Positions 22,028 through 28,905 of a DNA stretch of 61,082 bases are shown here, piece by piece. A program made the translations under genes and the position numbers. Numbering within the stretch: position 1 is the stretch's first letter; each line of letters begins with the position of its first letter. A model generated the notes under the pieces. It saw nothing but the letters and a program-made list of their open reading frames with translations. It was not told where the DNA came from and did no database searches. Source of the stretch: Micavibrio sp. (GTDB lineage: Bacteria > Pseudomonadota > Alphaproteobacteria > Micavibrionales > Micavibrionaceae); the NCBI GenBank assembly GCA_026989265.1, contig JALSJP010000019.1, positions 1 through 61,082 of the forward strand. The letters run 5' to 3'.

Positions 22028-22843
<816 letters not shown>

Positions 22844-25676: not shown

Positions 25677-28316
25677 ATGAAGACAGTCAATGATGTTAGA
25701 AGTGAATTTTTAGGTTTCTTTGAAAAAAAAGGTCATGAGGTTGTGCAATCATCCTCGCTTGTTCCGCATAATGACCCGACATTAATGTTTGTAAATTCAG
25801 GTATGGTGCAGTTTAAGGATGTTTTTACGGGCAAGGATAAACGCCCATATAGCCGCGCGACCTCAGCGCAAAAATGCGTTCGCGCTGGCGGTAAGCATAA
25901 CGATTTGGAAAATGTAGGCTATACTGCGCGTCATCATACTTTTTTTGAAATGATGGGTAATTTCTCATTTGGTGATTATTTCAAAGAAGAAGCCATAGAG
26001 TTCGCTTGGGATCTTATAACCAAAAATTTTGCCCTTCCACCTGAAAAACTATGCGTAACTGTTCACTCTTCCGATGAAGAGGCAGCAGCAATCTGGAAGA
26101 AAATAACGGGCTTTTCTGACGATAAAATTATCCGCATTTCTACCGATGATAATTTCTGGCGCATGGGTGATACTGGTCCTTGCGGTCCTTGCACTGAGAT
26201 ATTTTATGACCATGGCGAGCATATTTGGGGCGGCCCTCCAGGAAGTGCAGAAGAAGACGGCGATAGATTTATCGAGATATGGAATAATGTTTTCATGCAA
26301 TATGAGCAGGTGGACGCGGATACTCGCATAGATTTGCCCGCGCAAAGCGTTGATACTGGCATGGGGCTGGAGCGCATAGTAGCCACATTAATGGGCAGCA
26401 ATAACAATTATGATATTGATATTATGCGTTCATTAATCGAGCATAGTGCAGAGCTTACGGGCGTTGACCCTGATGGTGATATGGCGGCTTCTCACAAGGT
26501 GATAGCCGATCATTTGCGCTCATGTGCTTTCTTGTTGGCTGATGGGGTTATGCCTAGCAATGAGGGGCGTGGCTATGTATTGCGCCGTATTATGCGAAGG
26601 GCTATGCGTCATGCTCATCTTTTGGGCGCAAAAGATCCTGTAATGTATAAATTATTCCCAACTCTTATTTCTAAAATGGGAGAAGCTTATCCCGAGCTTA
26701 TCCGAGCGCAAAGCCTCATCACTCAAACGCTTGAGACCGAGGAAAATCGTTTTAAAACTATGCTTGATCGCGGCATTAAAATGCTTGATGAGGAAACTTC
26801 TAAAATTGAAAGCGGCGCAAAATTTTCTGGCGCTGTGGCATTTAAATTATACGATACATATGGCTTTCCTTTGGATTTAACTCAAGATGCGCTTAGAGCA
26901 AAGGAAATCGAAGTTGATACAGATGCATTTGACACGGCAATGGCAGAGCAAAAAGCAAAAGCCCGCGCCGCATGGTCAGGCGCAGGCGGCGAGACAACCG
27001 AAGCTCTATGGTTTGATATTTTTGATGAGTGCGGCGCGACTGAGTTTTTGGGCTATGATAAGGATAAAGCCGAGGGCAAAATTTTGGTGATTGTTAAGGA
27101 TGGCAAGCGCGCCAAAAGTCTTAAATTAGGCGAAGAAGGCATAATCATTACCAACCAAACACCATTTTATGCCGAAAGCGGCGGTCAAGTGGGCGATTCG
27201 GGTGAGCTTATATCTGCTAGCGGCACAAAGTTTCAAGTCACCAATACCCTTAAACCTCTCCCCTCCCTTAGTGCGCATTATGTGAATTGCATGGAGGGTG
27301 AAATCGCTATAGGTGATGCGGTTGTAATGAACGTTAATACCAAGCGTCGCGCGATGATTAAAGCCAACCACTCCGCTACGCATTTATTGCATAAAGCATT
27401 ACAGCAAGTTTTGGGCGATCATGTTACCCAAAAAGGGAGCTTACAAGATGATAAGCGCACCCGCTTTGACATTGCGCAGCCCGTTGCAATCACGGCAGAG
27501 CAGATCGCCGAAGTTGAGGATATTGTAAACGCTCAAATCCGCGCCAATAGTGAGGTTATTACCCGCATCATGAGCATTGATGAAGCGCGGGAAAGCGGCG
27601 CTATGGCTCTATTTGGTGAGAAATATGATGATGAAGTGCGCGTTGTTTCAATGGGCGGCGATACTCCATTTTCTATCGAGCTTTGCGGCGGCACTCATGT
27701 TAAACGCACAGGCGATATTGGCTTGCTTAAAATTACATCCGAAGGCGCGTTATCTTCTGGAATTCGAAGAATTGAGGCTGTCACAGGCGTTAATGCTCTT
27801 GAATATCTAAACTCACAGGCACATATTTTGCATGAGGCAAAACTCCTGCTTAAGACCAGTGAGGCGGACTTCCTCCCCTCTCTAAGCGCTCGGATTATAG
27901 AAAATAAAGCACTTGAAAAAGAAGTGGCAAAACTCCGCAAAGAAGTTGCCCTTGGCGGTGGCTCTAATGATAGCTCTGATAACATTAAGGAAATCGCAGG
28001 CGTTAAATTCACTGGTCGCGTTTTGGCAGGCTTCCCGCCCAAAGATTTAAAGCCTATGGCAGATGATCTAAAGGCTAAGCTTGGCTCTGGCATTGTGGTG
28101 CTGGTGGCTACTAATGAGGATAAAGCCTCTATCGTTGTCGGCGTTACCGATGATCTAACCGCCAAAATAAGTGCGGTTGATCTTGTGCGCGTGGGGGCGG
28201 GCGTTCTTGGCGGAAAAGGCGGCGGCGGTAGAGCTGATATGGCGCAAGCTGGTGGCTCTGATGTATCTGCTGCTAATGACGCTCTTGAGGCTATAGAGAA
28301 ATCTCTGGCTGGCTAG
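25677..28316 (+). CDS. alaS: Alanyl-tRNA synthetase
   Basis: 879 residues from ATG 25677 ([20 protein letters not shown], the typical N terminus), with AAGG just upstream; an ATG at 25659 would add six residues. Class II catalytic core: [21 protein letters not shown] and [19 protein letters not shown]. The editing domain has [11 protein letters not shown] and CGGTHV zinc/editing residues, and the C-Ala domain ends with [19 protein letters not shown]. It charges tRNA-Ala, and the window's only tRNA gene is a tRNA-Ala 465 bp downstream on the other strand. Confidence 0.98.
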
Positions 28317-28335
28317 GGTCATAACCATATTTTAA

Positions 28336-28806
28336 TTGGTGCACTGCCCAGCTACGCTTCCCAGCACACTCAGATTTTCTAAGCTCGCTATTGCTCACAA
28401 TAAAATCTGGTGGACCCTAGCGGGATCGAACCCCCATTCGCTCCGCGAATGCTTTTTAATAACAGCGGTGGACTCCAAACAGACCAGTCGAAACATTTTA
28501 CAGATAGATGACTTGTTGCAAATTGGTGCACTGCCCAGCTACGCTTCCCAGCACACTCAGATTTTCTAAGCTCGCTATTGCTCACAATAAAATCTGGTGG
28601 ACCCTAGCGGGATCGAACCCCCATTCGCTCCGCGAATGCTTTTTAATAACAGCGGTGGACTCCAAACAGACCAGTCGAAAGATTTTACAGATAGATGACT
28701 TGTCGCAAATTGGTGCACTGCTCAGCTACGCTTCCCAGCACACTCAGATTTTCTAAGCTCGCTATTGCTCACAATAAAATCTGGTGGACCCTAGCGGGAT
28801 CGAACC
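28336..28806. repeat. 187-bp tandem repeat (about 2.5 copies) carrying tRNA-Ala 3' ends
   Basis: Unit starts (TTGGTGCACTG) fall at 28336, 28523 and 28710, giving a period of exactly 187 bp. The copies are nearly identical; I see single-base differences such as AACATT/AAGATT, TTGTTGCA/TTGTCGCA and CTGCCCAG/CTGCTCAG. Each unit contains the last 25 nt of tRNA-Ala including CCA (28408-28432, 28595-28619 and, in the real tRNA, 28782-28806). Before this segment, on the minus strand, the two extra copies have a perfect 7-bp hairpin (CATTCGC GGA GCGAATG) and GGGGG instead of the tRNA-Ala body, resembling the long variable arm and T-stem of a class II tRNA. Open frames through the repeats do not look like real genes. 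Confidence 0.9.
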
Positions 28807-28857
28807 GCTGACCTCCTCGCTGCCAGCGAGGCGCTCTCCCAGCTGAGCTAAGGGCCC
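28782..28857 (-). tRNA. tRNA-Ala(GGC)
   Basis: 76 nt, cloverleaf by eye. Acceptor GGGCCCT pairs with AGGGTCC (one G-T pair); discriminator A and CCA are encoded. The D arm is AGCTCAGCTGGGAGAGC, the anticodon stem CCTCG/CGAGG with loop CTGGCAG gives anticodon GGC, and the T arm is AGCGG TTCGATC CCGCT. Its last 25 nt are repeated twice downstream. The leader has two perfect hairpins. Confidence 0.95.
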
Positions 28858-28873
28858 CCTTATAAAACAAGAG

Positions 28874-28905
28874 CGTGGCAAATGCCACGAGCCATAGTCA
28901 TGGCT
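28874..28905 (-). promoter_or_regulatory. Two adjacent perfect hairpins in the tRNA-Ala leader
   Basis: CGTGGCA-AA-TGCCACG (28874-28889) is directly followed by AGCCAT-AGTC-ATGGCT (28890-28905). Both lie 17-48 nt upstream of the mature tRNA 5' end. They could be processing structures or a dyad operator; no T-run follows in either direction. Confidence 0.5.

Follow-up and report, generated by a model that had tools for sequence, protein, structure and literature searches.

A tandem array behind a Micavibrio tRNA-Ala gene is a member of a widespread class of tRNA-linked repeats fitted to their hosts

Introduction

A widespread class of tRNA-linked repeats is fitted to the tRNA genes behind which its members lie. 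A tandem array with two full units, behind a tRNA-Ala gene in a 61,082-nucleotide stretch of Micavibrio sp. DNA (the window), belongs to that class and is ordinary for the branch found in its family. Each unit carries, besides a direct copy of the tRNA 3' end, a short antisense copy of the T-stem; this segment, absent from an earlier note on the same DNA, is the most informative feature we found. Our best reading is that the array represents a new branch of tRNA-linked repeats that would spread between tRNA genes and be re-fitted to each host, by a mechanism that we infer from the comparisons below. The source organism is placed in the family Micavibrionaceae, whereas NCBI places the genus name Micavibrio under Bdellovibrionota.

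Repeats of similar plan are known from Escherichia coli, where 22 tRNA-linked repeats (TLRs) in ten loci repeat, without change, 18-19 bp from the 3' end of the tRNA or 5S gene that precedes them; members lie directly downstream of a tRNA or rRNA gene, in one to five copies per locus (PMC8144298, citing Rudd 1999). Another trait used to define the class is transcription and processing along with the upstream RNA. According to the same source, TLRs were first described in 1978 and had no known function by 2021 apart from three 5S-linked members, which are transcribed and bind Hfq and CsrA in vitro; a role once reported for one TLR was retracted (PMC8144298).

Results

Two full units and part of a third follow tRNA-Ala(GGC)

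The host gene, tRNA-Ala(GGC), occupies 28782-28857 on the minus strand (ARAGORN, and Rfam RF00005 at 61.5 bits), and the array starts directly after its CCA. Read along that strand, the tRNA is followed by unit 1 (28595-28781), unit 2 (28408-28594) and the first 74 bp of a third unit (28334-28407), which comprise spacer only and are delimited by sequence and by the array limit of Tandem Repeats Finder (TRF) at 28334. Each full unit is 187 bp long and runs through a spacer, an antisense T-stem segment, a linker, a hairpin and a tail copy; repeat comparison and TRF show the two to be 99% identical. The earlier note had proposed a period of exactly 187 bp, which stands, and three units starting at 28336, 28523 and 28710, which do not. 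TRF reports 2.5 copies of period 187 over 28334-28806 (98% matches, score 925), and in a repeat comparison of the window 28334-28520 and 28521-28707 are 99% identical, whereas the third register, 28708-28894, reaches only 67% because the tRNA side there is the real tRNA. The window therefore holds two full units and part of another, not three, as counted in the assembled sequence. An artefact is the least probable of the explanations we weighed: the source assembly is a draft of 34 contigs, but elements of the same kind occur in 37 genomes, and more than one tail copy is present at 7 of 72 sites, in six genomes, as well as in complete E. coli genomes.

All parts of the units lie on the minus strand. 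The tail copies (28595-28619 in unit 1, 28408-28432 in unit 2) are direct copies of tRNA positions 52-76, a start that holds across the whole element set described below. They begin 166 and 353 nt past the CCA, with 0 mismatches over the 22 nt compared, in agreement with the earlier description of units on the 3' side of the tRNA that include its last 25 nt with CCA. The antisense segment, ACCGCTG, is the complement of tRNA positions 48-54; it lies at 28650-28656 in unit 1 and, with the same letters at an offset of 187 bp, at 28463-28469 in unit 2. Between antisense and tail, the GC hairpin (7 bp, loop of 3) occupies 28622-28638 in unit 1 and 28435-28451 in unit 2. Its letters (CATTCGC-GGA-GCGAATG) and the GGGGG ahead of the T-loop are as first described, and with the adjoining A-run it is terminator-like on the plus strand in both units.

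The extra copies had been regarded as chimeras rather than functional tRNAs, and ARAGORN and Rfam concur, each predicting one tRNA only and none at the copies. Folding of the 448-nt array alone is no better than that of shuffles (z 0.16), and the same holds for a 69-nt piece on either strand. An alanyl-tRNA synthetase gene (PF01411, 712 bits) converges on the array, its end at 28316 adjoining the partial unit, and a Bax-inhibitor-like gene flanks the other side. Elsewhere in the window, at 22135-22167, the hexamer TGCTCC is repeated in 5.5 perfect copies within an open reading frame.

Elements of the same plan lie behind tRNAs of 13 isotypes

A search of the window genome with the unit recovered a relative behind tRNA-Val(TAC) that ends in a tRNA-Val tail, not a tRNA-Ala tail; these two are the only ones among 30 tRNA genes examined (32 tRNA matches in total) to have a tail copy. 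Across 104 family genomes, the hairpin pattern CATTCGC-N(2-4)-GCGAATGG, which demanded no tRNA, gave 20 matches in 9 genomes (one palindrome, matched on both strands, accounts for two). Every match follows either a tRNA gene or a tRNA 3' half, and an automatic test detected a tail copy in 16 of the 20. A double-tail pattern with an unconstrained spacer matched in 54 of the 104 genomes, many matches being ordinary neighbouring tRNAs and others the module.

Further elements were found with a covariance model built from 41 of them. Nearly all inspected matches above about 35 bits were elements, those below about 33 bits were mostly tRNA-like background, and two matches at 33.8 bits were elements. 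The resulting working set numbers 72 distinct elements; it covers 37 genomes in 17 genera and tRNAs of 13 amino-acid isotypes with 21 anticodons, and is a lower bound drawn from the retrieved loci among the model matches listed. Excluded were units containing N, those with the first tail copy more than 170 nt away or with more than 5 mismatches over 22 tail nucleotides, and three loci without a whole tRNA (L090, L092 and L205). Two of these, L090 (G115 C10) and L092 (G018 C5), have the element behind a tRNA-Leu 3' half; the half starts near the anticodon loop, and no 5' half lies upstream. The arrangement looks as if integration of an island at the anticodon loop had displaced the tRNA 3' end.

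This survey counters the idea that the array arose independently as a local event, since modules of the same plan occur behind 13 isotypes in 37 family genomes and in other families. It also bears on the idea that replication slippage simply duplicated the tRNA 3' end in tandem at this one place, without a wider family. The two units of the window are tandem and 99% identical, as slippage would leave them; a module with tRNA-specific antisense nevertheless recurs across the family and beyond, which refutes slippage as the whole story and makes it highly improbable as an explanation.

Several loci have a structure of their own. The tRNA-His element of G115 C97 (L199) is a composite in which two unlike hairpins follow one another. 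Hairpins of the second type also occur behind Leu and Pro tRNAs of the same genus; one core was possibly inserted into another. In G013 C4 (L204), an unrelated insert separates the units, whose two tRNA-Ala tail copies are 293 bp apart. A decayed unit relative at G004 C30 1044-1122 (L040) ends in a tRNA-Val-like tail at a locus where no tRNA is called.

The antisense segment follows the host tRNA

Outward from the tRNA, the usual order is CCA, spacer, antisense segment, AT-rich linker (of the type TTTTTAAAA), GC hairpin, G run, and tRNA position 52 to CCA. The hairpin mostly has 5-9 bp and a loop of 3-4, and is weak in 2 of 49 elements (L146 and L157). Over the 72 elements the direct copy has a sharp start, with identity to the host of 1.00 at position 53, 0.99 at 52, 0.58 at 51 and 0.35 at 50. 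The antisense matches the complement of the host tRNA at rates of 0.97 (position 49), 0.99 (50), 0.94 (51), 0.97 (52) and 0.93 (53 and 54); beyond position 54 it tapers in the T-loop (0.83, 0.76, 0.69), and at position 48 the match falls to 0.40-0.42. Some elements retain a longer recognisable stretch of the tail in the antisense (CAATCGGG-TGA-ATCGAACCGAC). Since positions 49-51 lie mostly outside the direct copy, the antisense seems to be fitted to the host tRNA gene itself rather than to the direct copy.

Because the antisense was placed at the best match in each unit, its rates were judged against shuffled, foreign and reversed controls. The best antisense 9-mer (positions 57-49) has at least 7 matches in 62 of the 72 elements, compared with 11 of 72 for the reversed, uncomplemented 9-mer; the other 10 elements have only 5 or 6 of 9. 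In a 7-mer test of 49 elements, the match to the own tRNA averaged 5.55 of 7 versus 4.52 for foreign tRNAs, a difference reached in 0 of 10,000 permutations. Both the tail copy and the antisense are specific to each tRNA.

Cores are shared between tRNA genes of one genome and within genera

Linker and hairpin are more similar between elements of the same genome behind tRNAs for different amino acids (0.267, 69 pairs) than between elements of different genera behind tRNAs for the same amino acid (0.136, 197 pairs), a difference matched in 0 of 2,000 permutations. Sharing of cores between tRNAs is clear by eye in G056 (Asp, Arg), G029 (Arg, Met, Ser) and G018. Similarity is highest where two genomes of one genus have an element behind the same isotype (0.493, 24 pairs), and descent within genera therefore plays a part.

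Three genomes, that of the window, G010 and G007, have the module at the syntenic site between the Bax-inhibitor gene and tRNA-Ala. It is missing there from G009, G011 and G003, which belong to the same genus; in G001 the site is cut by a contig end. Among 23 hand-picked tRNA-Ala loci, a tail copy is present in 4, one (L052) has spacer and antisense only, and one (L060) is cut by a contig end. In the 14 of 18 same-tRNA pairs within a genus whose cores exceed 0.6 similarity, the antisense is conserved at 0.88, the core at 0.82, the spacer at 0.62 and the downstream flank at 0.55 (0.86, 0.73, 0.60 and 0.54, respectively, for all 18 pairs). In all 18 the antisense is tied to a T-stem strand that is itself unchanged.

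Other alphaproteobacteria and E. coli

At the class level, the covariance model matched 8 of 385 genomes at E <= 1e-7, four of them from four other families, and a pattern demanding GAAC matched in 15 of the 385, some matches being ordinary tRNA pairs. At least 7 of 9 antisense bases are present at 9 of 11 distinct tail-copy loci, 8 of which have at least 8, although these loci had been pre-selected for part of the match, not the T-stem part, by the GAAC pattern or by model R1, which was trained on antisense-bearing elements. The antisense fails at L235 (6 of 9) and L247 (5 of 9). At the latter (G231 C1), tRNA-Leu(TAA) is followed by a 90-bp tandem array whose tail copies lack antisense, another kind of tRNA-tail array. 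A contig pattern scan flagged 11 of 54 stretches as tRNA-linked, one of which (Lentisphaerae) is of another make. In a limited survey of the literature we recognised nothing on such elements outside enterobacteria or on an antisense T-arm, a weak negative.

The earlier note had likened the array to the rtT repeats of E. coli, and the likeness extends beyond the tail copy. Of 12 tRNA-borne sites with a tail copy in 13 K-12 stretches, four (lysV, lysQ, proK and the tyrT-tyrV spacer) carry at least 8 of 9 antisense bases. The antisense of lysV and lysQ spans tRNA positions 49-61, ending exactly at 49, that of proK spans 48-56, and that of the tyrT-tyrV spacer reads GAACCTTCGA. At tyrV and one arg site 7 of 9 bases match, which about 9% of shuffles reach, and the remaining 6 of 12 sites have 5 or 6 of 9. 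For the 5S-linked repeat at rrnB, the longest 5S antisense found was 8 nt. The unit behind the 5S rRNA there (L314) contains GGATTTGAAC, which reads like an antisense T-loop from a former tRNA host; it may be a leftover of such a host, and at 10 bases chance is possible.

The count of copies across strains that the earlier note called for was made for E. coli. At proK, zero, one or two units were found in three strains. Two of them, identical over the roughly 400 bp aligned, differ by exactly 168 bp, the length of one unit; the third carries two. Of the pair, the strain that is one unit short retains spacer and antisense, as L052 does, and the pair therefore favours tandem gain or loss over fresh insertion. 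Of the 25 strains listed from an even sample, 11 have a proK span of 383-385 bp instead of 551, and annotated RtT features at tyrTV number from none to four among the 25 strains listed.

Candidate mobilisers do not track the elements

Gene presence does not track element content for any of three candidate mobilisers, a reverse transcriptase, a Y1 transposase or a tyrosine recombinase. No RVT_1 match was found in the window genome; the domain is present in 3 of 10 element-bearing genomes, absent in the other 7, and present in 5 of 10 genomes without strong model matches. The single Y1 transposase match of the window genome (19.8 bits) is below the cut-off; one of the 10 element-bearing genomes and one of the 10 others exceed it. 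Every one of the 20 genomes in the two groups has tyrosine recombinases. G037 and G039, which hold five and three elements, have only two each, the number expected for XerC and XerD.

These data weigh on the reading of the elements as attL/attR scars, or as a minimal att module of a tRNA-integrating tyrosine-recombinase element. A direct repeat of the tRNA 3' end that is bounded in the T-arm is indeed the usual trace of an integrase. Against this, the first tail copy lies 59-165 nt from the CCA in all 72 elements (the set being limited to 170), no larger gene-bearing version was met within 3.5 kb, cores are common to several isotypes whereas tyrosine integrases are site-specific, and in G037 and G039 the recombinases amount to the XerC/XerD number. 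The window tail copies are 187 bp apart, and the earlier observation that no integrase is nearby holds: the three PF00589 matches of the genome lie on C3, C5 and C30, with none on the window contig, C19. We consider the att reading improbable. The third recombinase of the window genome (G000 C5 52025-52522) lies about 0.8 kb from a tRNA gene (C5 53310-53392), possibly as part of an integrated island. Integron attC sites have the core GTTRRRY. As a source of the inverted arms they were rejected, because the T-loop GTTCRA misfits that consensus and antisense positions 49-51 match the tRNA yet lie mostly outside the direct copy.

Possible terminator features on the two strands of the module

In 33 of the 72 elements the antisense is directly followed, on the tRNA strand, by a T-run (5 or more T in 8), where 8.7 are expected at random positions. 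On the reverse strand, 32 of the 72 have a terminator-like site formed by the hairpin and the A-run of the linker, where 20 shuffles gave a mean of 2.8 and a maximum of 6; the rate of 0.44 compares with 0.08 behind 73 copy-less tRNAs. From these letters, the module may be a two-faced terminator that borrows the tRNA's own T-stem strand. More broadly, it might be a functional RNA that is conserved because it works: the antisense would pair with the T-stem 5' strand of the host and, with the frequent U-run, act as a terminator or folding switch. In a further part of the same reading, the GC hairpin and A-run would terminate transcription arriving from the opposite side.

Beyond the T-run and reverse-strand counts, this functional reading draws on the better conservation of antisense and core than of flanks, on the coincidence of the antisense boundary with the end of the T-stem, on 36 cells of the hairpin and inner stem in which both sides are changed, versus 11.3 in shuffles, and on the three transcribed, Hfq- and CsrA-binding 5S-linked repeats of PMC8144298. 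Other results run against it. In a strict scan the forward strand is terminator-like in 8 of 72 elements, not above shuffles (mean 5.1, maximum 12), forward terminators being rare in the family (0.14 behind the 73 copy-less tRNAs). Neither of two covariation measures for the hairpin and inner stem exceeds shuffles (pairs changed on both sides, 5 versus 4.0; pair types, 19 versus 16.7). By a crude count, the downstream gene is not convergent more often behind tRNAs with a copy (30 of 71) than behind those that lack one (42 of 78), which gives no support to protection of convergent genes as the role. The E. coli units printed lack a U-run after the antisense, and a working RNA leaves unexplained both the tail copy and the way in which each site comes by its matching antisense. 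Folding of the whole tRNA plus unit does not discriminate: the acceptor pairs with the distal tail in 69 of 72, but shuffled controls are nearly equal (mean 0.89 versus 0.92), and the folding argument was therefore dropped. We regard a functional module as rather unlikely, and we favour spread with re-fitting, roughly twofold, over a purely functional reading.

Discussion

We hold with moderate confidence that the array is a two-unit member of a small, non-coding, tRNA-linked repeat class that spreads and is re-fitted to each host. The linker-hairpin core would spread from tRNA gene to tRNA gene within a lineage and, at a new site, the tail copy and 5-9 nt of antisense would be taken from, or re-fitted to, the new host tRNA. 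Copying would probably proceed via host replication, repair or recombination, with the universal GTTC of the T-loop as the likely contact point; host machinery is proposed because genomes with elements need no reverse transcriptase, Y1 transposase or more than two tyrosine recombinases. Later, as the unit-number alleles of E. coli suggest, the array would grow or shrink by whole units through recombination between identical tails. The copies are not predicted to be tRNAs, and the tRNA itself remains intact.

Several findings weigh against spread. We saw no insertion event, donor, or circular or RNA intermediate. The pairs most alike in core are those with the same tRNA in the same genus (0.493), pointing to descent within genera, and concerted evolution could account for the likeness of cores inside one genome. 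Selection acting on an old element would also fit the finding that antisense and core are better conserved than the flanks. Weak antisense, with 5-6 of 9 bases, occurs in 10 of 72 family elements, at 2 of 11 loci of other families and at 6 of 12 E. coli sites.

A bolder generalisation, which we offer tentatively and with more doubt than belief, is that TLRs form one proteobacteria-wide class of minimal, protein-less elements that live solely behind stable-RNA genes and are re-targeted at each move by copying the host tRNA twice, the tail directly and the T-stem 5' strand in antisense. If this is true, the target would itself supply the guide-like segment, and we know of no bacterial repeat that is fitted to its target in this way. 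With the same plan now seen behind tRNAs of 13 isotypes in a lineage far from E. coli, what was a curiosity becomes a comparative problem: what copies the T-stem, why copying ends at position 49, and whether tRNA folding or termination is affected by the RNA. Testable examples exist in E. coli K-12 at lysV, lysQ, proK and tyrTV, and unit numbers vary by strain. In annotation, such copies could be mistaken for att sites or broken tRNAs.

Among known systems, REP/RAYT and IS200/IS605-type elements are short, dispersed, hairpin-bearing and non-coding, as are the elements described here, which differ in being tied to tRNA 3' ends and in carrying a tail copy. Islands and prophages that integrate into tRNA genes leave attL/attR direct repeats of the tRNA 3' end, and the elements share that duplication; they differ in having no integrase or cargo between the copies, a short distance, an antisense segment, and similar cores on several isotypes.

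In plan, the window class appears closest to the E. coli TLRs. Both lie directly behind a tRNA gene (TLRs also behind 5S rRNA) in one to several units, each unit ending with the 3' end of the host gene, and in both a hairpin-rich core is common to different hosts. At lysV, lysQ, proK and the tyrT-tyrV spacer the TLRs have an antisense T-stem as in the window class, whereas at the remaining 8 of the 12 tRNA-borne sites 5-7 of 9 antisense bases match. The tail copy starts near position 59 in TLRs and at 52 in the family elements, tail identity is 18-19 bp in TLRs versus 25 bp in both window copies, and the printed TLR units, unlike many family elements, have no U-run after the antisense. The core sequences are unrelated. 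In the window, Rfam RtT (RF00391) has no match at its 45-bit gathering score, nor when E values as high as 10 are allowed, while the E. coli tyrTV stretch gives four, at 133-138 bits; for other TLR cores we know of no Rfam model. By sequence the array is thus excluded from RtT, and its likeness to the E. coli repeats is one of plan.
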